Source: a virus. Taken from it: a DNA stretch of 39,250 nucleotides. Made by a program: the position numbers and the translations under genes. The notes below the pieces were generated by a model. The model made no database searches, had not been told where the DNA came from, and saw only the letters and a list, made by a program, of their open reading frames with translations. Where the stretch lies: the IMG/VR virus record IMGVR_UViG_3300035034_002256, positions 1-39,250 of that record; one strand, written 5' to 3'. Below, one piece after another: positions 1,975 to 26,540 of this stretch. Positions within the stretch are counted from its first letter, which is position 1. Each line of letters opens with the position of its first letter.

Positions 1975-2441
1975 ACATTTTAAAGTTTTTCAGGTGGCAA
2001 GGATTTAAGAAAGTTCCTAAGAAATACTTTACACAAGAATCGTTCGCTTATAGTGTTGAACACAGGGAATGTTGGAGTGAATATAACGGACTTCGAGAAG
2101 ATCTTAGTAAAATTTGGTTCGAAATAAAAGAAGTTAGTAAACGTGAAGCAGAAGGATATAGGAGAACAGCAAGACTCTTGTTTGATCCTGTTAGGCACAA
2201 TTGTCTTAGTTTACAACTAAACGAAAAGGAAATAGTATATATATTCTGTAATAATCAAATGTCATATTCTATATTAATGATAAATAACGAAGATGGGATT
2301 TTCACAAGGGCGTATGAATTTATGTTAGAAGATCACGGAACAGAAAACTCATTTAACAAAAATTTAAAATCTGTAATTGGTACAACAAGATACAGAGATT
2401 ATGTATTAACTCAAATTTTTAAAAAAGAAGAAAAGGTATGA
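1971..2441 (+). CDS. Hypothetical protein, 156 aa
   Basis: Unrecognised soluble protein, basic at the N-terminus (MNILKFFRWQGFKKVPKK), with alternating strand-like segments around residues 60-115. ATGA overlaps exist at both ends. It is the third gene of the helicase-PRPP synthetase cluster. No catalytic signature can be named. Confidence 0.7.
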   Translation: MNILKFFRWQGFKKVPKKYFTQESFAYSVEHRECWSEYNGLREDLSKIWFEIKEVSKREAEGYRRTARLLFDPVRHNCLSLQLNEKEIVYIFCNNQMSYSILMINNEDGIFTRAYEFMLEDHGTENSFNKNLKSVIGTTRYRDYVLTQIFKKEEKV

Positions 2442-3361
2442 ACACAAAGGTATTTAGTTTAAAGAATTCAAGAGAGATCGGAAAGAAGATCACAAACATC
2501 GATTTGATGACAACAAAACAATTCTCTGATGGAGAAATAAAAGTCGAAATCGAAGAAAGCGTTAGAAGTAATAGGGTGTTTGTTATTGGGTCACTAACTA
2601 CCTCTGATGATATTATCGAATTAATGATGGTGGGTGATGCTTTAAGAAGGGCAAGCGCAAAAGAAATTATTGCAGTCGTTCCTTACTTAGCCTATATGCG
2701 TCAGGATAGAAAGGATAAACCTAGAACAGCAATCGGTTCTAAAGTGATGGCAAATATGATCGAGATCTATTATGATCAAATCATCACTATGGATTTACAC
2801 TCAACACAAATCGAAGGATTCTTTAATATACCTGTTACGCATATTAATTGTGCTACAATATTTGAAATCTATATTAGAAAAAACTTTGACCTTAGTAACG
2901 TGATCATTGTTTCTCCTGATGTTGGGGGGGCAAAAAGAGCAAAGAAGTTGAGTTCAAAAATGGGGCTTCCATTGGCTATTATTAACAAAGAGAGAAAGAT
3001 AGCTAATGAAATATCTTCTATGGAATTAATAGGTGATGTTAATGGTAAAGATGTGATCATATTAGATGATATGGTTGATACTGCAGGTTCTTTATGTAAA
3101 GCAAGCGATTTGTTAATTGAAAACGGTGCGAATAAGGTTTGGGGTTGTGCAACACATGGTGTTTTATCAGGGGAAGCACATAATAGAATATTAAATTCGA
3201 GTTTAGAGAAATTAATTTGCACTGATACTATTAAGATAAAAGATAATGAAAAGATAGAGATACTAAGCTGTTCAGACCTAATTAAGAAAACTATTGAAAC
3301 TATTGAGAGTGGAAATAGTATAAATAGTTTAGTAAATGATGAAACTTTTCTCGTTAATTAG
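2438..3361 (+). CDS. prs: Ribose-phosphate pyrophosphokinase (PRPP synthetase)
   Basis: Makes PRPP from ribose 5-phosphate and ATP, feeding purine, pyrimidine and NAD synthesis. At 307 aa it aligns by eye with bacterial Prs throughout: FSDGEIKVEI, DALRRASAKEI, PYLAYMRQDRKDK, MDLHSTQIEGFF (catalytic His), the flexible loop INKERKIAN, and the ribose-phosphate loop ILDDMVDTAGSLCKA. Catalytic-loop Lys and Arg are present. A run of seven G near 2924-2930 is in frame. The stop is TAG. Alternative: phage Prs homologues of the NARP1 NAD-rebuilding pathway make ADP-ribose pyrophosphate, but no partner nicotinamide transferase lies in this window, and the conserved motifs favour ordinary Prs. Confidence 0.92.
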   Translation: MNTKVFSLKNSREIGKKITNIDLMTTKQFSDGEIKVEIEESVRSNRVFVIGSLTTSDDIIELMMVGDALRRASAKEIIAVVPYLAYMRQDRKDKPRTAIGSKVMANMIEIYYDQIITMDLHSTQIEGFFNIPVTHINCATIFEIYIRKNFDLSNVIIVSPDVGGAKRAKKLSSKMGLPLAIINKERKIANEISSMELIGDVNGKDVIILDDMVDTAGSLCKASDLLIENGANKVWGCATHGVLSGEAHNRILNSSLEKLICTDTIKIKDNEKIEILSCSDLIKKTIETIESGNSINSLVNDETFLVN

Positions 3362-4375: not shown

Positions 4376-6142
4376 ATGTCAGAATTATCAAATATATATG
4401 ATCCAAATACGTTTATAAAAGAAGTTAGAGATAATCGTTATATACAGATCCAAGATGTGTATGGTGAGGTGGATTTTACTATTGATTACCTTTATTTTTC
4501 TTCTGCTATACCAAACGGTAGATTTTTAACAGTAATTAAAACAGATGAAACTTCTATAAAATTACAATTCACTTCAAGTTCAAAAACAATAACAGGGCTT
4601 AATAAACTATTAGACTTAATAGGAAAGCTCAAAAAGGGTACATATAATCCTACTCCTACGACATCTACAACCGAAACACAAGTTCTTGATTACTCTACTA
4701 TGTACTCTAGTAGTAACTTCATAAAAGAGATAGCCCAAGTCAAGTATATCCAAATACAAGATAGATTAGCATCAGAAGTAGTACATTCTATTGATTTTAG
4801 TAATGTAACAACTACTTTAACACAAGGCAGGTTTGTTTTTATATATCAGACTAATGTAGATCTGATAACATTACAGTTTATATCGAACTCAGAAGCAATC
4901 ACAGCACATAACATATTAAGGGAAACAATAGATCAGCTAAAAGATGGCACTTATGATAAAGTAAGCTCAACTACTATACACGAACCCACACCATTAGACT
5001 ACTCTACTATGTATTCTAGTAGTAACTTCATAAAAGAAGTATTCCAAGATAGGTATATCCAAATACAAGATAGATTAGCATCAGAAGTAGTACATTCTAT
5101 TGATTATAATATTGTTACTAGTACTTTATTACAAGGTAGGTTTGTAATAGTACAACAAACGAATATGGATTCTATATCATTACAGTTTATATCAAATTCA
5201 GAAGCAATTGCTGCACAAAACTTATTAAGGGAAACAATAGATCAACTAAAGGATGATACATATAGTAAAACTATCAGTGGGGCTACAACCGATACCATAT
5301 CATTAGACTACTCCTCTATGTATCATAGTAGTAACTTTATAAAAGAAGTATTCCAAAACCAATATATTCAAATACAAGATAGGTTAGCAGACCAAGTAGT
5401 ACATTCTATCGATTTTAATAATATAACAACCACTTTAACACAAGGTAGATTTGTGTTCATATATCAAACTAATGTAGATCTGATAACATTACAGTTTATA
5501 TCTAATTCTGAATCTATTACTGCTCATACTATATTAAGAGAAACAATAGATCAACTAAAGGACAATACGTATAATAAAACTTCTACTATAATTGGTGGTG
5601 TTTTATATGACCCTAATACTTTTATCAATCAAATAGAATTCGAAGACTATTCTGTACAGTTAAGTGATATAAAAGGTAACATAACAGATTCTATTGTAGC
5701 AAGACAAGTAACTACTGTGTTTACTAGTGAGAATTTTGTTAAAGTTAAATTTGAAGCAAGTGATGAATTAAAGAGTTATCAATTTGAAACGAGTTCTAAA
5801 GCAATAGAAGGGGCTGAGAAACTTAGAATAGCTATTAAAACAATCACTGATAAATTATCATCAGAGGGTGATGGAAGTGGGGTACAAAGTTACAGCGAAG
5901 ATTTCAATTCGAATATATGGAAATTAGATCCTCCTGTAGATTTCTCTATGAGTTCTTTTAATTTAGATTATTATGAATTAGTATGTCCTGATGGATCTAA
6001 TACTTGTGCCGATGCAGATATTGTGAAACAAAGGTGTAGGGGCTTAGTAGAGATAATAGGGAACGAAGATACTGACGTATTATCTTATATTAATATTTAC
6101 TTCAATCAAACAGTTAAAGGTAGAGCAATATTAATCGGATAA
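4376..6142 (+). CDS. Five-repeat protein, probable virion component
   Basis: 588 aa built from five related domains of about 83-90 residues at roughly 8-90, 106-193, 209-296, 311-400 and 411-494, on a period of about 100. Repeat hallmarks are NFIKEV, YIQIQDRLA, VVHSID, LTQGRFVFIYQTN, LQFISNSEAI and LRETIDQLKDGTY, joined by Thr/Ser-rich linkers. Repeats 2-4 are nearly identical even in DNA, indicating recent duplication; 1 and 5 have diverged. A unique tail of about 90 residues contains the only cysteines. Late-type box and repeat architecture suggest a structural or adhesive protein, but no family was recognised. Confidence 0.75.
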   Translation: MSELSNIYDPNTFIKEVRDNRYIQIQDVYGEVDFTIDYLYFSSAIPNGRFLTVIKTDETSIKLQFTSSSKTITGLNKLLDLIGKLKKGTYNPTPTTSTTETQVLDYSTMYSSSNFIKEIAQVKYIQIQDRLASEVVHSIDFSNVTTTLTQGRFVFIYQTNVDLITLQFISNSEAITAHNILRETIDQLKDGTYDKVSSTTIHEPTPLDYSTMYSSSNFIKEVFQDRYIQIQDRLASEVVHSIDYNIVTSTLLQGRFVIVQQTNMDSISLQFISNSEAIAAQNLLRETIDQLKDDTYSKTISGATTDTISLDYSSMYHSSNFIKEVFQNQYIQIQDRLADQVVHSIDFNNITTTLTQGRFVFIYQTNVDLITLQFISNSESITAHTILRETIDQLKDNTYNKTSTIIGGVLYDPNTFINQIEFEDYSVQLSDIKGNITDSIVARQVTTVFTSENFVKVKFEASDELKSYQFETSSKAIEGAEKLRIAIKTITDKLSSEGDGSGVQSYSEDFNSNIWKLDPPVDFSMSSFNLDYYELVCPDGSNTCADADIVKQRCRGLVEIIGNEDTDVLSYINIYFNQTVKGRAILIG

Positions 6143-7242: not shown

Positions 7243-7273
7243 TTTGGTAATTAAATAAACTTTATTATATTTG
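7243..7273 (+). promoter_or_regulatory. Bacteroidota-type promoter of the tRNA array
   Basis: TTTG at 7243-7246 (-33 element), 19-nt spacer, then TATATTTG at 7266-7273, matching TAnnTTTG of the Bacteroidota primary sigma factor. Transcription should start near 7278, giving a leader containing the short ORF at 7312 and the terminator at 7403. This is the best host-type promoter in the window. Confidence 0.7.
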
Positions 7274-7298
7274 CACTCTATAAGGAAAAGAAAACTTT

Positions 7299-7306
7299 AA
7301 TATATA
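7299..7306 (+). promoter_or_regulatory. AATATATA late-type box before leader ORF 1
   Basis: Exact box 5 nt before the ATG at 7312, giving the tRNA leader a second, phage-type promoter candidate. Confidence 0.4.
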
Positions 7307-7311
7307 AGAAA

Positions 7312-7368
7312 ATGGTATTAGTATTTAAACATAAATTTTTTCATAACCACTGCAAAAGTAGAGGGTGA
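7312..7368 (+). CDS. Attenuator leader peptide 1 (Phe/Lys/His-rich)
   Basis: An 18-codon ORF, MVLVFKHKFFHNHCKSRG, then TGA. It holds three Phe (TTT), three Lys (AAA) and three His (CAT, CAT, CAC) codons, nine of them within residues 5-15. The tRNAs downstream decode exactly His, Lys and Phe. Its last codons include AAGTAGAGG (7356-7364), able to pair with the 5' arm of the terminator at 7403. Composition and position resemble bacterial hisL and pheL leader peptides. It is too short to expect a function as a protein; translation is inferred. Confidence 0.65.
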   Translation: MVLVFKHKFFHNHCKSRG

Positions 7369-7414
7369 GATTTTTATGTCTAAAAATTAAACCAAATGAT
7401 TAAAACCTCTACTT
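7356..7414 (+). promoter_or_regulatory. Antiterminator pairing of attenuator 1
   Basis: AAGTAGAGG (7356-7364), inside the leader ORF, is perfectly complementary to CCTCTACTT (7406-7414), the 5' arm of the terminator. A small hairpin at 7369-7388 (ATTTTTA, loop TGTC, TAAAAAT, plus a G-T pair) sits between them. A ribosome at the leader stop would mask 7356-7364 and allow termination. A ribosome stalled on the F/K/H codons would leave it free and favour readthrough. Pairings are visible; the mechanism is inferred. Confidence 0.65.
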
Positions 7415-7435
7415 GAATAAAGTAGAGGTTTTTTT
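7403..7435 (+). terminator. Intrinsic terminator 1 before tRNA-His
   Basis: A 12-bp perfect stem (7403-7414 with 7420-7431), 5-nt loop and a T run to 7435. It ends only 7 nt before the first tRNA, so it must be bypassed for the array to be made from the upstream promoter. Confidence 0.9.
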
Positions 7436-7442
7436 GTTATAT

Positions 7443-7515
7443 GGTGTTCGTAGCTCAGGGGAAGAGCGTCTGTTTGTGACACAGAAGGTCGGGATCTCGG
7501 AATTCCTCGAACACC
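7443..7515 (+). tRNA. tRNA-His (GTG), unusual T arm
   Basis: Acceptor GTGTTCG pairs with CGAACAC, with extra G(-1) opposite C73, the His identity pair. The anticodon stem TCTGT/ACAGA holds TTGTGAC, anticodon GTG. The T arm is abnormal: stem GGGAT/TTCCT with a T-T pair where 53-61 is normally G-C, and loop CTCGGAA lacking T54 and A58. Overall lengths are normal, so this is substitution, not deletion. CCA is not fully encoded. It may be degenerate or deliberately altered. Confidence 0.75.
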
Positions 7516-7525
7516 CAAAATATAT

Positions 7526-7618
7526 GGTGATTGTAGCTGAATGGTATGTAGTATCTGTAAGAGAACAAGCACTTGGTTGTGACCCAAGAGGATGTCGGTT
7601 CGAGTCCGATCTTTCACC
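7526..7618 (+). tRNA. tRNA-His (GTG) with enlarged D loop
   Basis: Second His tRNA. G(-1) and C73 are present; acceptor GTGATTG/CTTTCAC has two adjacent T-T mismatches. The anticodon stem CTTGG/CCAAG encloses TTGTGAC (GTG). The T arm is canonical (GTCGG, TTCGAGT, CCGAT). The D stem GCT/AGC encloses about 27 nt (7540-7566) instead of the usual 7-11, an insertion of roughly 18 nt. Unusual but with intact His identity elements. Confidence 0.75.
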
Positions 7619-7635
7619 CAAAATATAAATGAAAA

Positions 7636-7851
7636 ATGGAATATTGTTATATATGCTTTAATGGAACAGAAGAAGAAATGGTGTGTGATACATGTGAAGA
7701 ACATTATTGCGAAGATTGTTCGTATATCTTTTCATTACACTACCAATTTCAAAGAAGTAGGTGCTATGAGTGTGCTGATCAGAGTAGAGAATATCCATTG
7801 GATAAAGCTGAAATAAGAGAAAGAAAAATTAATATGTTATTAGAAGTATGA
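7636..7851 (+). CDS. Small RING-like zinc-finger protein, 71 aa
   Basis: Two interleaved zinc sites are suggested by C4-x2-C7, C17-x2-C20, H23, C25-x2-C28, H35 and C43-x2-C46, the spacing of RING, B-box or other treble-clef fingers. The C-terminal 25 residues are charged and helical. It lies between the His tRNAs and leader ORF 2, inside the tRNA transcription unit, and its TGA overlaps the leader ATG as ATGA. Such fingers bind protein or nucleic acid; a role in tRNA handling or in the regulation is only suggested by position. An ORF in another frame (7592-7816) is a shadow. Confidence 0.75.
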   Translation: MEYCYICFNGTEEEMVCDTCEEHYCEDCSYIFSLHYQFQRSRCYECADQSREYPLDKAEIRERKINMLLEV

Positions 7852-7940
7852 GAACAGTAAGTAAAAATATCAAAGGTTTTAAAAAGTTTTTTAAGAAGAA
7901 CTTTATTAGGGAAAATACATCCTGATCGGAAATGATTAAT
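7848..7940 (+). CDS. Attenuator leader peptide 2 (Lys/Phe-rich)
   Basis: A 30-codon ORF starting at the ATGA overlap with the zinc-finger gene. Its core KNIKGFKKFFKKNF carries six Lys (three AAA, three AAG) and four TTT Phe codons; a fifth Phe follows, and there is no His. All tRNAs after the next terminator read Lys or Phe codons, and both Lys codons have a matching anticodon there (TTT, CTT). Directly after the K/F run, TATTAGGG (7904-7911) can pair with the following terminator arm. Interpreted as a regulatory leader; translation is not proven. Confidence 0.6.
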
Positions 7941-7960
7941 AAATGTATAAGCCCTAATAG
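7904..7960 (+). promoter_or_regulatory. Antiterminator pairing of attenuator 2
   Basis: TATTAGGG (7904-7911) is complementary to CCCTAATA (7953-7960), with an extra G-T pair at 7903-7961. The 5' partner lies in leader ORF 2 just after its K/F codons; the 3' partner is the 5' arm of terminator 2. This repeats the arrangement of attenuator 1 with unrelated sequence. Confidence 0.6.
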
Positions 7961-7982
7961 AATATCTGTTAGGGCTTTTTTT
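7950..7982 (+). terminator. Intrinsic terminator 2 before tRNA-Lys
   Basis: Stem 7950-7961 with 7967-7978 (one T-G pair), 5-nt loop and T run 7977-7982. The first Lys tRNA begins 4 nt later, so this terminator also guards tRNA genes. Confidence 0.88.
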
Positions 7983-7986
7983 ATAT

Positions 7987-8060
7987 CCCCTCTTAACTCA
8001 GTTGGCTAGAGTACCGTGCTTTTAACACGGGAGTCGCAAGTTCGAGCCTTGTAGGGGGGA
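7987..8060 (+). tRNA. tRNA-Lys (TTT)
   Basis: Acceptor CCCCTCT/AGGGGGG (one T-G pair), D stem ACTC/GAGT, anticodon stem CCGTG/CACGG enclosing CTTTTAA (anticodon TTT), T arm GCAAG-TTCGAGC-CTTGT, discriminator A. Canonical, no encoded CCA. Confidence 0.92.
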
Positions 8061-8068
8061 CAAAATAT

Positions 8069-8157
8069 GCAGGTGTATCCGTAGTTGGTCGAACGGTCCC
8101 GCCTTTTAAGCGGATGAGTGAAAGCTCCAACGTGGGTTCGAATCCCACCACCTGCAC
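8069..8157 (+). tRNA. Class-II-like tRNA with TTT anticodon
   Basis: Acceptor GCAGGTG/CACCTGC and T arm GTGGG-TTCGAAT-CCCAC are perfect, discriminator A. The D arm (CCG/CGG) and a long variable arm (around 8114-8130, GAG paired with CTC) are typical of Leu, Ser or Tyr tRNAs. The only good anticodon stem is CCGC/GCGG, which puts CTTTTAA in a 7-nt loop and TTT at 34-36, with a C-A mismatch at 27-43. TTT reads Lys codons, a combination not expected for class II. A Leu-type identity with a distorted loop cannot be excluded. Confidence 0.7.
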
Positions 8158-8161
8158 AAAC

Positions 8162-8234
8162 GGTGATATAGCTCAGTTGGTAGAGCAGTGGATTGAAGAT
8201 CCACGTGTCGGGGGTTCAAGTCCCTCTATCACCA
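8162..8234 (+). tRNA. tRNA-Phe (GAA)
   Basis: Acceptor GGTGATA/TATCACC, D stem GCTC/GAGC, anticodon stem GTGGA/TCCAC with TTGAAGA (anticodon GAA), T arm GGGGG-TTCAAGT-CCCTC, discriminator A. Canonical structure. Confidence 0.93.
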
Positions 8235-8242
8235 CAACATAT

Positions 8243-8316
8243 TCCCTCGTAGCTCAGTTGGTTAGAGCTACCGACTTTTAATCGGTAAGTCACAGGTTCG
8301 AGTCCTGTCGGGGGAA
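8243..8316 (+). tRNA. tRNA-Lys (TTT), second copy
   Basis: Acceptor TCCCTCG/CGGGGGA, anticodon stem ACCGA/TCGGT with CTTTTAA (anticodon TTT), T arm ACAGG-TTCGAGT-CCTGT, discriminator A. Its acceptor and T arm resemble the Lys (CTT) gene at 8400, so those two probably arose by duplication; the Lys gene at 7987 is more distant. Confidence 0.93.
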
Positions 8317-8321
8317 CATAT

Positions 8322-8393
8322 GGAAACTTAGCTGAGACGGTTTAGCGGAAGGTTGAAGACCTTCAGAGGTGGGTTCGATCCCCACAGTTTCCA
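8322..8393 (+). tRNA. tRNA-Phe (GAA), divergent second copy
   Basis: Acceptor GGAAACT/AGTTTCC, anticodon stem GAAGG/CCTTC with TTGAAGA (anticodon GAA), T arm GTGGG-TTCGATC-CCCAC, discriminator A. The body is quite unlike the Phe tRNA at 8162; the D stem is essentially GCT/AGC. Confidence 0.9.
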
Positions 8394-8399
8394 CAATAT

Positions 8400-8473
8400 T
8401 CCTTCGTAGCTCAGTTGGCTAGAGTAACTGACTCTTAATCAGTGGGTCACAGGTTCGAGTCCTGTCGGGGGAA
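8400..8473 (+). tRNA. tRNA-Lys (CTT)
   Basis: Acceptor TCCTTCG/CGGGGGA with two T-G pairs, anticodon stem ACTGA/TCAGT with CTCTTAA (anticodon CTT), T arm ACAGG-TTCGAGT-CCTGT, discriminator A. Reads AAG, present in leader ORF 2. Confidence 0.93.
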
Positions 8474-8474
8474 C

Positions 8475-8511
8475 TAATCAGAGGTCGTGGGTTCGAATCC
8501 CACCGCCTGTA
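8475..8511 (+). pseudogene. 3'-half tRNA remnant
   Basis: Begins with TAATCAG, identical to the anticodon-loop/stem sequence of the preceding Lys tRNA (8436-8442), then continues as variable loop, a perfect T arm (GTGGG-TTCGAAT-CCCAC), acceptor half CGCCTGT and A. No matching 5' half exists. The T arm and acceptor resemble the class-II-like tRNA at 8069. Probably left by recombination between tRNA genes. Confidence 0.8.
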
Positions 8512-8565: not shown

Positions 8566-9684
8566 TCAAATAATTATTATACCGTCTCTATTAGGCGAAA
8601 CGCTTAAGATTTTTATTCTCTGATGGAGATTATCTTGTATATAATTAATATATTGTCTAAAGTTAGGATCTTCTAAATCTGCTTTAACCCATGATTTGAA
8701 ATCATAATATTTACCACCACAATAAATTTTAAGTGGGGTTATATTTTCTAGTACATCAGATTTAGTCATAATTAAATCAGTTACTCCATTTAATTCTATA
8801 CTCTCTTTTAATTCATCTAAGTTTAACCAACCACATCTTCTTGGTCTGCCTGTTGTAGCACCAAACTCCCCACCTGCCTTCTGTATTCTTTCGCCAAGTT
8901 GATTTTTTAATTCAGTTTTCATATCACCATTACCAACTCGTGTTAAATATGATTTAAACACACCATATACTTTACCAACACTCTGAGGTGGCATTGCCAA
9001 CCCTACACATGCACCTGAACTTACTGTATTTGATGAAGTAACATATGGATAAGATCCATGATCAATATCTAACATAGTACCTTGTGCGCCCTCTGCTAGT
9101 ATTTCACCTTCTTGGTTTCTTAACCAATTAGACTTAACGATATTTAATGTTTTAAGAAATTCCATACCTACTCTAAAATGTTCGAACTCAAGGAATTCAT
9201 CTTGGTCTTTACCCATTAAATCAACAGGTTCTATATTTAGATCGTTTCCAATAAAATCCACAACTCTATAACCTTCTCGGTATATTTTATCTCGATAACA
9301 AGGTCCGATCCCCTTTGGGGTACTACCTATGGTTGACACATTCTCTTTATCTTCCATAAAATGGAAAGGAGTCACTACGTGTGCGTTTTCTGAAATGAAA
9401 ATTCTCTCTCTTGCGTTGGGTATATGTTCTTCAACTTCTTTTATTTCTTGCATCAATTGAAATGGGTCGATAACCATACCATTACCCAAAAAATTCTTTG
9501 TGTGTTCATGTACTATACCACTTGGTATTAAGTGTAAAACTATTTTTATTCCATTATGATATATCGTATGTCCTGCGTTTGCACCGCCCTGATATCTAGC
9601 AACAATATCATATTTTTTAGACAACATATCTGTTATCTTTCCTTTTCCTTCGTCTCCAAATTGAAGCCCTACTAATACGTCCAT
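8566..9684 (-). CDS. purA: Adenylosuccinate synthetase (PurA-like)
   Basis: Converts IMP, aspartate and GTP to adenylosuccinate, the first step from IMP to AMP. Motifs: GLQFGDEGKGK with the catalytic Asp near the N-terminus, ARYQGGANAGHTI, STPKGIGPCYRDK, LAEGAQGTMLDIDHGSYPYV, VGNGDMKTEL and GATTGRPRRCGWLNL. At about 372 aa it is shorter than bacterial PurA (about 430). The start is set at ATG 9684; a TTG at 9690 is also in frame. The intact GDEGKGK Asp argues against the PurZ enzymes of diaminopurine phages, where that residue is reported replaced; a PurZ0-like activity cannot be excluded. An 80-nt divergent spacer separates it from the next gene. Confidence 0.93.
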   Translation of the reverse strand: MDVLVGLQFGDEGKGKITDMLSKKYDIVARYQGGANAGHTIYHNGIKIVLHLIPSGIVHEHTKNFLGNGMVIDPFQLMQEIKEVEEHIPNARERIFISENAHVVTPFHFMEDKENVSTIGSTPKGIGPCYRDKIYREGYRVVDFIGNDLNIEPVDLMGKDQDEFLEFEHFRVGMEFLKTLNIVKSNWLRNQEGEILAEGAQGTMLDIDHGSYPYVTSSNTVSSGACVGLAMPPQSVGKVYGVFKSYLTRVGNGDMKTELKNQLGERIQKAGGEFGATTGRPRRCGWLNLDELKESIELNGVTDLIMTKSDVLENITPLKIYCGGKYYDFKSWVKADLEDPNFRQYINYIQDNLHQRIKILSVSPNRDGIIII

Positions 9685-9751
9685 AAACAATGATTATTTT
9701 ATTATTCTATTACTTTAGGGCATATATGTTTAAATAAAACTCTCTTATTTT

Positions 9752-9759
9752 AATATATA
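9752..9759 (+). promoter_or_regulatory. AATATATA late-type box
   Basis: Followed by ATAT and the ATG at 9764. Confidence 0.5.
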
Positions 9760-9763
9760 ATAT

Positions 9764-10435
9764 ATGATTAAGAACTTTAAACAATTTATGGAAGCAACTT
9801 CATATCATAAATTAAATGATGATGATGAATATAATATTACGAAGACTATAAGAGATGATGGACATAATTATCAATATTGTGATGGTATATTATACGAACT
9901 TTCGGGGAATGATACGAAGGTTAGTGTAGATGAAGTAGAACAAACAGAAGAAAATATGTTTTATTCAGATCAAATCAAAAGGTATATACAATATTTTAAC
10001 GAAGGTGGTATAACACAAACTTTCCCTGTTCAATCAAGTCCACTAGGCGACTGTACTAATTTAGAAGCTATGTTAGGGTATTTAGATGAACCTGATAATT
10101 TTGATATGGCTTGGGATCTTTTATCTAAATATCACAGGAAGTTATTTGATATGGATAAATTTGATATCGTAAGTGATCCTGATTCATTTGGGTTTAATGA
10201 TGAAATGAAGCTATCACAAATAACTAATATAAAAGATTTAGACGATGCTTATAATGAAGATATAATGGAAGATGAAGACAGAGAAGGTGACTATGATGAA
10301 GAATTGTACTTAGGGTTTAGTACTATATTAGAATATTGGAAAGAAAACAAAGAGTATACACTTACTGATTTTAATCATAGGTTCGCTGCTTTAGTAGAGA
10401 TGGGTAGAAAATATATACTAGTAGAAGAGGTATAA
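9764..10435 (+). CDS. Acidic protein with capsid-targeting-like N-terminus
   Basis: 223 aa, very acidic (Asp/Glu runs around residues 160-185), no recognised fold. It begins MIKNFKQFMEATS, closely resembling the T4 internal-protein capsid-targeting sequence MKTYQEFIAE, where the prohead protease cuts after the Glu. By analogy it may be packaged in the head, trimmed after MKNFKQFME-type residues and injected with DNA. The late-type box 4 nt before its ATG fits a virion protein. The packaging role is an inference from the N-terminal motif only. Confidence 0.7.
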   Translation: MIKNFKQFMEATSYHKLNDDDEYNITKTIRDDGHNYQYCDGILYELSGNDTKVSVDEVEQTEENMFYSDQIKRYIQYFNEGGITQTFPVQSSPLGDCTNLEAMLGYLDEPDNFDMAWDLLSKYHRKLFDMDKFDIVSDPDSFGFNDEMKLSQITNIKDLDDAYNEDIMEDEDREGDYDEELYLGFSTILEYWKENKEYTLTDFNHRFAALVEMGRKYILVEEV

Positions 10436-20189: not shown

Positions 20190-21224
20190 TTACTTATTGA
20201 ACCTAATGAATGCGTTTTGTGTCATATGAACATATTCTGCCTTTCCTATAAATTCAACGAGATTGCGTTTACCACAATAACTCATTGCGCTTTTTAAATA
20301 GTCTCTGAAATTCTCAGTCCAACCACTAAGAGTATATTCTACTTTGCTATACTTAGTAATACCCTCACTAGTGGTTAGTTTTTTCTTTCCCCATTTCTTT
20401 TGAACTTCTTTAGTGGACATTCCTCTATAATATGAGAATATAATTTCTCCTTCTTTAAGAAGTTTTTCGGCTTTGTTGTTAGTTATCTCTATGTAGTTAT
20501 CTTTTTCTAATATGTATTTAGGTGTACATGATTCTAATGTTTTGTTTAGAATCCCACCTAACATAATATAATTTGCGCCAACCGCTAATGCTTTAATAAT
20601 ATCACTGAAGTTTCTAAACCCACCATCAGCTACTATCTTAGTATCATATCCTTTAGATCTCTTGATCTTAGCACACTCTTCTACCAATGATCCCATAGGA
20701 TAATGTACTGATGTGTTTGCACTAGTCGTACAAGCAGACCCACCGCCTATACCACAACGCACATAGTCTACACCTATTTTACCATATTCTCTAAAGGTTT
20801 CAGGGTTAGCTATATTACCTATCATTAATTCTTTATCAGGGAACTTCTCTTTGTATTCCTTGGATAGATCCAATAATTTTTTCATATGACCATTAGCAAC
20901 ATCTACTAATAATTTTTGTGGTGGGTTTTGGTTAATGCTAATAATATCTTCGAATTCTGATATACTGACAGAGATAAAATACTTATCTACGTCTTCGTTT
21001 TTCCATACACTATTAGTATCTTCTGTTCTTGGTATACATACCTCAAATCCCCTTTCTAAGAATTTATCATAGTTTTCCATATCTACTACTGTATCCATGG
21101 GTGATACGACTAAGGGTAATTTGCCCCCTTTATAGTAGATGTTTACTTCACTTCTAGATTCTATATCAGAGATTGCTGCAGGAACAATAGTAATATCATT
21201 CCAATCGAACTTTAAATTATCCAT
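20190..21224 (-). CDS. guaC: GMP reductase-like enzyme (IMPDH/GMPR family)
   Basis: A 344-aa (beta/alpha)8 barrel enzyme without CBS domains, the length of GMP reductase, which turns GMP into IMP with NADPH. Motifs: SPMDTV (41-46), LLVDVANGH (like GuaC DVANGY), IGNIANPETF, CGIGGGSACTTSANTSV with catalytic Cys165, SLVEECAK (like GuaC AVIECAD), IVADGGFRN, MLGGI and YYRGMS. YRGMS and SAMSYCG also recall IMP dehydrogenase, so the direction of catalysis is not certain; GMP reductase is favoured by overall length and the DVANG motif. The GIGGGS loop is atypical (usually GIGPGS). Confidence 0.8.
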   Translation of the reverse strand: MDNLKFDWNDITIVPAAISDIESRSEVNIYYKGGKLPLVVSPMDTVVDMENYDKFLERGFEVCIPRTEDTNSVWKNEDVDKYFISVSISEFEDIISINQNPPQKLLVDVANGHMKKLLDLSKEYKEKFPDKELMIGNIANPETFREYGKIGVDYVRCGIGGGSACTTSANTSVHYPMGSLVEECAKIKRSKGYDTKIVADGGFRNFSDIIKALAVGANYIMLGGILNKTLESCTPKYILEKDNYIEITNNKAEKLLKEGEIIFSYYRGMSTKEVQKKWGKKKLTTSEGITKYSKVEYTLSGWTENFRDYLKSAMSYCGKRNLVEFIGKAEYVHMTQNAFIRFNK

Positions 21225-25000: not shown

Positions 25001-25636
25001 TACACTATCGATAAAATCGTCTCTTTTTTTTGGATCTTTATTGTAAATACTTTTCAATATTTCCGATACTCCTTCTTCTATTTCTATTATAGAATTACCG
25101 ATATCTTTATATCTAGTTAATTTCTCATGACTTTTAGGATCTGTTATCTCGCTGTTTAAGTCATTTATGATATTAATTACCTGCGTACTAAGACTATTAT
25201 ACACAATTCTATCTTCTTTGTCTAAATATTTTGCACATTCATAAGTATATTCTTTTATCAAATCCATATATGCTTTAGTTATCCAAATGAAATAGCACAA
25301 TTTAACAGTTTTCACGTACATCAGGATATCATAATGTATTTTACTAATAGGAGTTAATATGATTCTCAATAGTATATCTACCTTTTTGTCACGATGATAT
25401 AAGTTATTTCCATAAACATCGTCTTTTATATCATAATAGATAGTAATTCCGTGTGAAATTAAAACGAAAAAAGCACCACATATAAGTAAAGTAATTCCTA
25501 TTTTTGAATGTACGGGGATTATAATAAACGAAAACAGAAATAAAAAAGTAACAAAGAACCTTATATAAAATAAACATCTGAGAGCAGAGGTAATAAATAA
25601 TGAGATTCTATTTGATGTTGTTATAGTTCTATACAT
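24986..25636 (-). CDS. Membrane protein, 216 aa
   Basis: Two adjacent hydrophobic segments near the N-terminus (about 22-44, LFYIRFFVTFLFLFSFIIIP, and 47-66, ITLLICGAFFVLISHGITIY), then a mostly helical cytoplasmic domain. Its start overlaps the end of the Nudix gene upstream on the same strand by 8 bp, so the two are likely co-translated. No family recognised. Confidence 0.6.
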   Translation of the reverse strand: MYRTITTSNRISLFITSALRCLFYIRFFVTFLFLFSFIIIPVHSKIGITLLICGAFFVLISHGITIYYDIKDDVYGNNLYHRDKKVDILLRIILTPISKIHYDILMYVKTVKLCYFIWITKAYMDLIKEYTYECAKYLDKEDRIVYNSLSTQVINIINDLNSEITDPKSHEKLTRYKDIGNSIIEIEEGVSEILKSIYNKDPKKRDDFIDSVLKTN

Positions 25637-26078
25637 CCCTTTTTATCTTACGTAATACTTCTATTTGCGTATCATGTAATATTTCAAACGCTTCTTCTAT
25701 TGATACCCATTTAAAATCATCACATTCAGGAAATGGTTCTTTTAATTTTTTACCACCTAAATATACTACCATAGAGGTACATTTGAATGGATACTCATAT
25801 AAAAAGCCATCATATTTATATAAGTATGATTTAAGTTGCTTCTTCCCACTTTTATATACAACGATGTCATATTCTTTGATATAAGAACATTTTTCTAGCT
25901 TTCTGATGTCTAGATCGGTTTCCTCTCTAAACTCTCTTATAGCAGCATCTAAATACGCCTCGTTGGGATCTGCGTTACCTTTAGGTATACTCCAAAGATT
26001 AGGATCATGATTAGTAGGGTGTTCTACTAATAGTTCTTTGTTTTTGTTAAATAGGAATATACCACATGTTGTTTTCAT
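25629..26078 (-). CDS. Nudix hydrolase 1
   Basis: 149 aa with a Nudix box at about residues 34-56: G-x5-E-x7-REFREETDL, with Asp in place of the usual Gly near its end. Upstream PNLWSIPKG is typical of MutT-like proteins. These enzymes hydrolyse nucleoside diphosphate derivatives such as damaged dNTPs, ADP-ribose, dinucleoside polyphosphates or RNA caps; the substrate is not predictable here. TATTTTTG lies 4 nt before the ATG. It is followed in the transcript by a membrane-protein gene. Confidence 0.88.
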   Translation of the reverse strand: MKTTCGIFLFNKNKELLVEHPTNHDPNLWSIPKGNADPNEAYLDAAIREFREETDLDIRKLEKCSYIKEYDIVVYKSGKKQLKSYLYKYDGFLYEYPFKCTSMVVYLGGKKLKEPFPECDDFKWVSIEEAFEILHDTQIEVLRKIKRDV

Positions 26079-26082
26079 GTCA

Positions 26083-26090
26083 CAAAAATA
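26083..26090 (-). promoter_or_regulatory. TAnnTTTG element 4 nt before a start codon
   Basis: TATTTTTG reading leftward, then TGAC and ATG 26078. No clear -33 TTG. Confidence 0.3.
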
Positions 26091-26096
26091 ACTATA

Positions 26097-26540
26097 TTAT
26101 TTGAATAAATAACGTATTAATTTCTTAAAATGTGGCTCAACTAAATCTAGTGCTTTTTTTCTTTTACAAAGTTTTACTTTACGTATCTCTTTTTTATCTC
26201 TTTTTCCCTTTTCTAAATCTTCATATTCTTCCTTGGTTACTTTGATAATAAAGACATGTAAGTTCTTCTTGATACCATTCTTCTTATACGTATACTTAAA
26301 AGAACTATCAACTTGTCTTAATCCTATATCAATACCCGTTTCTTCCCTCATCTCTAAATATGCATTATGAAATAAAGACTTATCTTCTTCGACATGACCT
26401 TTAGGTATCGAATACTTTTCGTCACCTTTGAACTTTTTGGGAAGGACTAAGCATATTTTTTTATTATCTACTATTAATGCTATCCCTGCTAGTTGATGTG
26501 ATTCTTCTTTAAACGTGTTATATTCCTTAATTATGTACAT
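26097..26540 (-). CDS. Nudix hydrolase 2 with capsid-targeting-like N-terminus
   Basis: 147 aa. The Nudix box lies at about 48-70, GHVEEDKS then YLEMREETGI; the first Glu and the Arg of the consensus are replaced (Lys, Leu) while the REEXG metal-binding core is kept. YSIPKGHVEED resembles diadenosine-polyphosphate or diphosphoinositol-type Nudix enzymes. The N-terminus MYIIKEYNTFKEESHQ fits the IKxFxxF-type motif shared by several proteins here, unusual for an enzyme. The basic C-terminus is Lys-rich. It is only distantly similar to Nudix 1, so the pair is not a simple tandem duplication. Confidence 0.82.
   Translation of the reverse strand: MYIIKEYNTFKEESHQLAGIALIVDNKKICLVLPKKFKGDEKYSIPKGHVEEDKSLFHNAYLEMREETGIDIGLRQVDSSFKYTYKKNGIKKNLHVFIIKVTKEEYEDLEKGKRDKKEIRKVKLCKRKKALDLVEPHFKKLIRYLFK

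Follow-up and report, generated by a model that had tools for sequence, protein, structure and literature searches.

Why phages carry arrays of transfer RNA (tRNA) genes, and how these arrays are controlled, is a standing question. It is raised by the IMG/VR virus record IMGVR_UViG_3300035034_002256, of which positions 1 to 39,250 (39,250 nucleotides, the whole stretch analysed and hereafter called the window) hold, at 7243–8511, an array of tRNA genes interrupted by short open reading frames (ORFs) and intrinsic terminators. Very probably, transcription of each such phage tRNA block is gated by ribosome-mediated attenuation of the type known from the thr, his and phe operons of E. coli. The window is assigned to a mega-phage, whose relatives measure 462–735 kb and include the Lak phages. 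Its major capsid protein is 47.7–58.1% identical to those of the 634–735 kb metagenomic phages LR745206, LR756501, LR756502 and LR756504 and 28% identical to those of Prevotella Lak phages, and the IMG/VR contig G001 (270,756 bases) includes the window region at 99.9% identity.

The array lies entirely on the plus strand and begins with a putative promoter of Bacteroidota type at 7243–7273 (TTTG at 7243–7246, a 19 nt spacer and TATATTTG at 7266–7273). Leader peptide 1 follows at 7312–7368 (MVLVFKHKFFHNHCKSRG), with its Phe, Lys and His sensor codons at codons 5–13. The final codons of this leader form the competing (antiterminator) arm 1, or region 2, at 7356–7364 (AAGTAGAGG), which is complementary over 9 bp to CCTCTACTT at 7406–7414 within terminator 1 (regions 3:4, 7402–7437; a 13-bp stem at 7402–7432 and then a U-tract). 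The U-run stops about 7 nt before the first of two tRNA-His (GUG) genes, at 7444–7516 (RF00005, 44.9 bits) and 7527–7619 (RF00005, 51.6 bits; D-loop insertion of about 21 nt), both anticodons being taken from the covariance-model alignment. Leader peptide 2 (7848–7925, MRTVSKNIKGFKKFFKKNFIRENTS) has Lys and Phe sensor codons and no His. Its competing arm 2 at 7904–7911 (TATTAGGG) is complementary over 8 bp to CCCTAATA at 7952–7959 in terminator 2 (7949–7983; a 13-bp stem at 7949–7977 and then a U-tract), whose U-run stops about 4–5 nt before the first of six further tRNA genes. These are tRNA-Lys (UUU) at 7987–8061 and 8069–8157, tRNA-Phe (GAA) at 8162–8235, tRNA-Lys (UUU) at 8243–8317, tRNA-Phe (GAA) at 8322–8394 and tRNA-Lys (CUU) at 8400–8474. 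All tRNA genes between 7444 and 8474 thus carry His, Lys or Phe anticodons. A sequence-only reading of the window had described an array restricted to these anticodons, two terminators 4–7 nt before tRNA genes, leaders rich in the codons of the tRNAs behind them and a competing arm in each leader, and all of these features held up.

The composition of both leaders is exceptional for the locality. Among 315 short window ORFs (ATG start, 14–40 codons, both strands, the two leaders included), only 0.3% reach the Phe, Lys and His fraction of leader 1 and 0.6% the Lys and Phe fraction of leader 2. The arm 1 duplex with terminator 1 amounts to -14.5 kcal/mol, ranking 2 of 54 leaders for that terminator, and the arm 2 duplex with terminator 2 to -12.9 kcal/mol, ranking 1 of 54. 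Moreover, the naked leaders fold more stably than their dinucleotide shuffles (z = -5.4 for leader 1 and -3.8 for leader 2), and pairing of the sensor segment with the competing arm (1:2) is visible in both. The element TAnnTTTG lies within 90 nt upstream of 28 of 52 leaders, compared with 8% of random positions. As no promoter of Bacteroidota type was found within 90 nt upstream of leader 2, this leader is probably an internal attenuator transcribed from promoter 1.

These parts suggest the following course of events. The sequence itself shows the anatomy, the match of codons to tRNAs, the modularity and the specific pairing of leaders with their own terminators, while leader translation, stalling, readthrough and the physiological input are what we infer. 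RNA polymerase would initiate at the phage promoter and a ribosome would start on the leader ORF. With plentiful tRNAs for the sensor codons, which are those encoded downstream, the ribosome would reach the stop codon and cover the competing arm, so that the terminator forms and the tRNA genes stay untranscribed. If any sensed tRNA were scarce, uncharged or destroyed, the ribosome would stall within the sensor segment; the free competing arm would then capture the 5' arm of the terminator as it is transcribed, and the polymerase would continue into the tRNA block. Without translation, the sensor segment would pair with the competing arm in the 1:2 hairpin and the terminator would form. In the window, leader 1 would thus gate the entire array, and leader 2 would gate its Lys and Phe part once more.

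The arrangement is not confined to the window. For comparison, tRNA regions were gathered from seven relatives and further IMG/VR contigs, and the terminator immediately before each tRNA block was inspected. Nearly every such terminator has a short ORF upstream, with its stop about 15–35 nt before the hairpin and with residues naming the tRNAs that follow, and in nearly all units a strong hairpin followed by at least 6 T in the next nine bases lies immediately before the tRNA. This modular unit of short ORF, terminator and tRNA block occurs in more than 15 phage genomes and in at least 15 partitions of the tRNA set, covering all 20 amino acids. It would have counted against the sequence-only reading if related phages had kept the tRNAs without the leader ORFs or competing arms; the comparison shows the opposite, and leader codons covary with the anticodons of the arrays. 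The device thus appears general, used for all 20 amino acids and not special to His, Lys and Phe. Mega-phage and contig carriers include LR745206, LR756501, LR756502, LR756504, LR756500, Lak-A2, Lak-B5 and IMG/VR contigs. Counterparts of leader 1 in relatives read MRTINKHKHFSKLNKWFSNH.. and MTTNSTHKNFSKSHKWFSN.., and in the window phage the leader MKNLNLNINLNNLNTCVMNITVNRN.. stands before another array, which serves Asn/Leu/Ile/Thr/Val/Met/Cys. Other leaders are MTTSFQQQQQQQINRTD upstream of four tRNA-Gln, MKTTIKNTSSRSRSSKSGEVRLYS upstream of Arg and Ser tRNAs, MKTINVNIAPVNPQPQDQDPMRK.. upstream of Pro and Asp, MNTITNIASYESYYEEGN.. upstream of Glu and Tyr, and MKNLNNISIAVIGNGAGAIRE.. upstream of Ile, Gly, Met and Ala tRNAs. 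Absences agree as well: Trp is missing both from the tRNAs of the window array and from its leader, while relatives with tRNA-Trp in the unit have Trp in the leader.

Smaller, cultured carriers are the Cellulophaga phages phi38:1, phi4:1 and Calle_1 and the Maribacter phage Panino, in which the tRNAs are partitioned differently. Their units serve Pro/Glu/Gln/His/Leu/Arg (leaders MKIQRLHLQELEQP.., MNVTLLHQEPLEQLRLP.. and MKTQRLHQELEQP..), Ala/Lys/Ile/Gly/Met/Asp/Thr/Val/Arg (MKTIMNIATDIRTKGVK.. and MRAATGIAIIGRTKDK..) and Tyr/Ser/Asn/Trp/Phe/Cys (MKTNMTYNNFSWYSNCSFSSY..). In phi38:1, the U-tracts at which termination is predicted lie at about 35411, 36912 and 38133. Every carrier with a named host infects Bacteroidota, which, with few other phages examined, is not claimed as a restriction to that phylum. 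No leader/terminator unit was found in the tRNA arrays of crAss001, PAU, Salmonella phage CRW-SP2 and Acinetobacter phage Acj9. Tenacibaculum phage PTm1 and Chryseobacterium phage MA9V-2 gave no tRNAs above threshold, and in pT24 tRNAs and a terminator are present without a leader that matches them. Twenty contigs bearing the major capsid protein contained no tRNAs and are uninformative for the presence of the unit, because the arrays lie far from the capsid gene. Two features of the carriers may be added here. In Lak-A2 and Lak-B5 (L068 and L160), most of the tRNAs scattered over about 10 kb downstream are represented in a single leader, MRQFNNIYKNNVDIYADSFNWYEQ.., so that an unusually long stretch of tRNA genes may be under one attenuator. 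In phi38:1 and phi4:1 (L186 36729–36744 and 37972–37987; L077 about 450–462), the leader ORF starts only a few bases after a TAnnTTT promoter element, which raises the possibility of translation from leaderless transcripts.

The match between leaders and tRNAs was quantified by a composition-blind rule, taking the longest ATG ORF of at least 8 codons that ends 8–50 nt before a terminator. Such an ORF was present at 54 of 59 terminators. On average, a fraction of 0.343 of the residues matched the downstream tRNAs. Shuffling the leaders among all units lowered this fraction to 0.157 (standard deviation, sd, 0.013) and shuffling within genomes to 0.171 (sd 0.018), and 0 of 10,000 permutations of either kind attained the observed value. 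The sequence-only reading would have been refuted had shuffles shown the Lys, Phe and His enrichment to be ordinary, and these permutations speak against that. With one unit per similar tRNA set (15–20 units), the match was 0.357 versus 0.163; each of 200 draws was permuted 2,000 times without attaining it (p < 0.0005 in every draw). All 20 amino acids are commoner in leaders with the cognate tRNA than in those without; for instance, His occurs in 14/14 leaders with tRNA-His versus 3/40 without, and Trp in 11/11 versus 5/43. The main 10,000-permutation test retains all 54 ORFs, whereas for later analyses five mis-picks (long overlapping ORFs and ORFs before single tRNAs) were dropped by eye and one ORF was swapped for a nested one. 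With the mis-picks excluded, the match is 10% at codons 2–3 (swapped 17%), 53.5% (446/834; swapped 16.7%) from codon 4 to the competing arm and 16.9% (81/478; swapped 16.7%) from the competing arm to the stop. A match confined in this way to the segment before the competing arm is hard to explain except as a sensor followed by a switch.

The arrangement could also be used prospectively. A DNA pattern for a poly-Gln leader followed by a terminator end at the right distance was run over the entire IMG/VR collection, with the gap set from the known geometry; an earlier version with a shorter gap had matched six loci without tRNAs. The pattern matched 90 loci, of which 19 have any tRNA within 250 nt downstream, and tRNA-Gln is present in all 19, although many of these leaders are near-identical and represent about five distinct types. 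In one further case, on the minus strand of L228 (about 9480–10180), an HNH-like gene lies between the poly-Gln leader with its terminator and the tRNA-Gln, and the unit thus appears to have received a homing insertion. Four lineages found in this way have new partitions with the expected leaders, such as MKYNMNICESYRNINININDDENI.. upstream of Glu/Asp/Asn/Tyr/Cys/Ile/Met, and for the 7 units of these lineages the observed match was attained in 62 of 10,000 permutations. In bacterial genome contigs, the same pattern, a single motif, gave no leader with tRNA-Gln among those of the listed matches that were examined, and hence no evidence of the device in bacterial chromosomes.

Pairing is likewise specific to each unit. 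Over 54 units, the best duplexes between leaders and the 5' arms of their own terminators have a mean of -13.2 kcal/mol, compared with -8.2 kcal/mol (sd 0.31; 0 of 10,000) for swapped leaders and -7.2 kcal/mol for shuffled leader sequences; phi38:1 leaders 2 and 3 entered this comparison one base off, which hardly changes it. The competing arm is usually found near the 3' end of the ORF, roughly in its final ten codons, and would be covered by a ribosome that has reached the stop. In a ribosome model that hides everything up to 14 nt past the first base of the A-site codon, the 5' arm is predicted to be sequestered at 0.62 with the ribosome at the sensor codons and at 0.09 with the ribosome at the stop, where the terminator then forms (0.95). 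The positive control, E. coli thrL, gives the same profile of ribosome positions, with 0.82 at the sensor codons and 0.00 at the stop. In naked RNA, the 1:2 pairing reaches 0.60, versus 0.36 with the same codons reordered (p = 1e-8), and this protector hairpin, expected without translation, is found, though not in every unit. The competing arms are thus specific to their own terminators, and the 1:2 hairpin completes the classic four-region attenuator, in line with the mechanism first proposed for the window.

Several points weigh against attenuation. Five of the 54 blind-rule ORFs are clearly not leaders, and competing arms are weak or ambiguous in some leaders (for example, phi4:1 1422 and G006 3302). 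The known attenuator hisL of E. coli fits the simple ribosome model only partly, and transcription and translation are assumed to be coupled in these hosts. Furthermore, the full-length transcript at equilibrium prefers the terminator even with a stalled ribosome (0.95). The same preference is computed for E. coli thrL (0.96) and hisL (0.97). Since the completed terminator wins at equilibrium, antitermination must be kinetic.

What the switches respond to is a separate matter. In the PrrC/T4 and PARIS/phage tRNA-Lys systems of counter-defence, the phage replaces or repairs tRNAs destroyed by the host; no induction of the tRNA supply by this destruction is known there, whereas here an inducible sensor appears to be encoded. 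The leaders may be counter-defence sensors that turn on replacement tRNAs when a host anticodon nuclease resembling PrrC or the PARIS effector cuts particular tRNAs, a possible but somewhat doubtful proposal. The geometry of the units permits it, phages of this kind carry tRNA-ligation genes (PMC7162821), and a tRNA splicing ligase is annotated in phi38:1. However, all 20 amino acids are sensed, some of them not known as nuclease targets, and a general homeostasis of tRNA supply fits as well or better. Host anticodon nucleases are one plausible input, and ordinary homeostasis during infection is at least as likely a trigger.

Bacterial leader attenuators of the his and thr type report amino-acid starvation, and whether amino acids or tRNAs are sensed, what the ribosome reads is the level of charged tRNA. 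On this precedent, the phage attenuators could report general starvation of the infected cell, with the tRNAs as a mere regulated output. This is unlikely, as tRNA output cannot relieve a shortage of amino acids and the codons follow the box of the encoded isoacceptor, which would be needless for an amino-acid sensor. Leaders of units with tRNA-Arg of the CGN box contain 15 CGN versus 3 AGR codons, and those of units with AGR tRNA-Arg contain 11 AGR versus 2 CGN codons. Similarly, units with tRNA-Ile(UAU) have 15 AUA versus 7 AUY codons and units with tRNA-Ile(GAU) have 18 AUY versus 2 AUA codons. The Fisher p-values (2.6e-4 for Arg and 1.5e-4 for Ile) are optimistic because orthologous units were counted separately. 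Leaders therefore appear tuned to tRNA isoacceptors and not to amino acids only, which favours sensing of the tRNAs themselves.

It is far less probable that the ORFs lead translational or processing control, for example by gating RNase processing of a tRNA precursor, and not transcription termination. A few internal hairpins before tRNA-Lys blocks do lack a clear U-tract (for example, L041 7130–7200, with MKTKLKYKR), but nearly all units have the strong hairpin and T-run directly before the tRNA, and the competing arm is specific to the 5' arm of that hairpin. Mere composition, with AT-rich short ORFs chancing to lie upstream of tRNA genes, has K and F codons frequent in AT-rich genomes in its favour and was rejected as having a practically negligible chance, given the within-genome swaps, the de-replicated swaps and the sharp boundary of the match at the competing arm. 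A T-box riboswitch was also rejected, as only tRNA families and no T-box family matched in the window. The mini-leaders before tRNA-Lys blocks, MKTKLKYKR and MKTKRKYKR (L051 5590–5660, likewise with a hairpin without a clear U-tract), may represent a reduced version of the switch or a different one.

Some further features accompany the arrays. Between the tRNA-His genes and leader 2, the operon contains a 71-aa ORF (7636–7851, plus strand) with CxxC motifs, zinc-ribbon-like, whose stop overlaps the start of leader 2 (ATGA). Directly 3' of the last tRNA-Lys, 8475–8511 is a tRNA relic, a 3' half with an anticodon-stem remnant, a TTCGAATC T-arm and an acceptor end. The first tRNA-His (7444–7516) has an atypical T-arm without the TTCRA motif, as do tRNAs at L041 6555, L043 7899, L175 4129 and 9577, and L178 4199. 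Many such tRNAs open a unit, and His, Asn and Ile(UAU) are frequent among them; their T-loops share alternatives such as GGGATCGTTACCC (resembling an exchange of positions 54 and 58), GAGATATCGTAATTCTC or GGGATCTCGGAATTCC. The motif is absent in 17/49 first tRNAs (some regions without a detected tRNA included) versus 44/246 others. Additionally, the window encodes a 588-aa protein (4376–6142) with at least four repeats of about 100 aa (YSSSNFIKE..YIQIQDRLASEVVHSID..). ORFs resembling nucleotide-metabolism genes by eye (2438–3361, 8566–9690, 20190–21224 and 25629–26540) form a purine/nucleotide set around the array, with likenesses to ribose-phosphate pyrophosphokinase, adenylosuccinate synthetase (GDEGKGK motif intact), an IMP dehydrogenase/GMP reductase-like enzyme and two Nudix proteins.

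The machinery is that of known attenuators. Like the enterobacterial thrL, hisL, pheL, ilvL and trpL, the phage units have a leader rich in regulatory codons, a competing arm at the ORF end, an intrinsic terminator and 1:2/2:3/3:4 pairing; the short ORF is enriched in cognate codons, the terminator separates it from the first gene, and the antiterminator is exclusive and maskable by a ribosome at the stop. Unlike them, the phage units regulate blocks of tRNA genes and not biosynthetic enzymes, the sensed and the produced molecule are the same tRNA species, each leader covers up to about nine amino acids, and the units are phage-borne, with several per genome jointly covering most of the code. 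T-box leaders, mostly of Bacillota, also sense the state of a tRNA and control a terminator, but they recognise uncharged tRNA by direct binding and lack a leader ORF. The tRNA arrays of T4-like phages, mycobacteriophages, vibriophages and Lak or other huge phages share gene clusters that supplement the host set. The use of attenuation on phage tRNA genes is undescribed in the literature found: as the sequence-only reading had supposed, no account of self-sensing tRNA attenuators turned up, with subscription papers and preprints mostly outside coverage and priority unproven. In the main texts of PMC7162821 and PMC6784885, which report these phages, neither 'leader' nor 'attenuat' occurs.

With the array's own leader spelling the codons it serves, the vague idea of codon supplementation or tRNA replacement would become a set of readable and testable switches. 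Leader attenuation, a control of amino-acid synthesis, would reach tRNA genes and viruses and span all 20 amino acids, and the cultured carriers phi38:1, phi4:1, Calle_1 and Panino, several of them with laboratory hosts, make the device accessible to experiment. Being modular, the switches might be put to use as codon-specific tRNA sensors, and leader composition could predict which tRNAs limit infection in uncultured hosts. It is a real possibility, if short of a probable one, that these phages maintain a genome-wide, isoacceptor-resolved surveillance of tRNAs, in which every tRNA operon would carry its own codon-spelled sensor, the phage would gauge the entire decoding system during infection, and precisely those tRNAs that the host withholds or destroys would be replaced.

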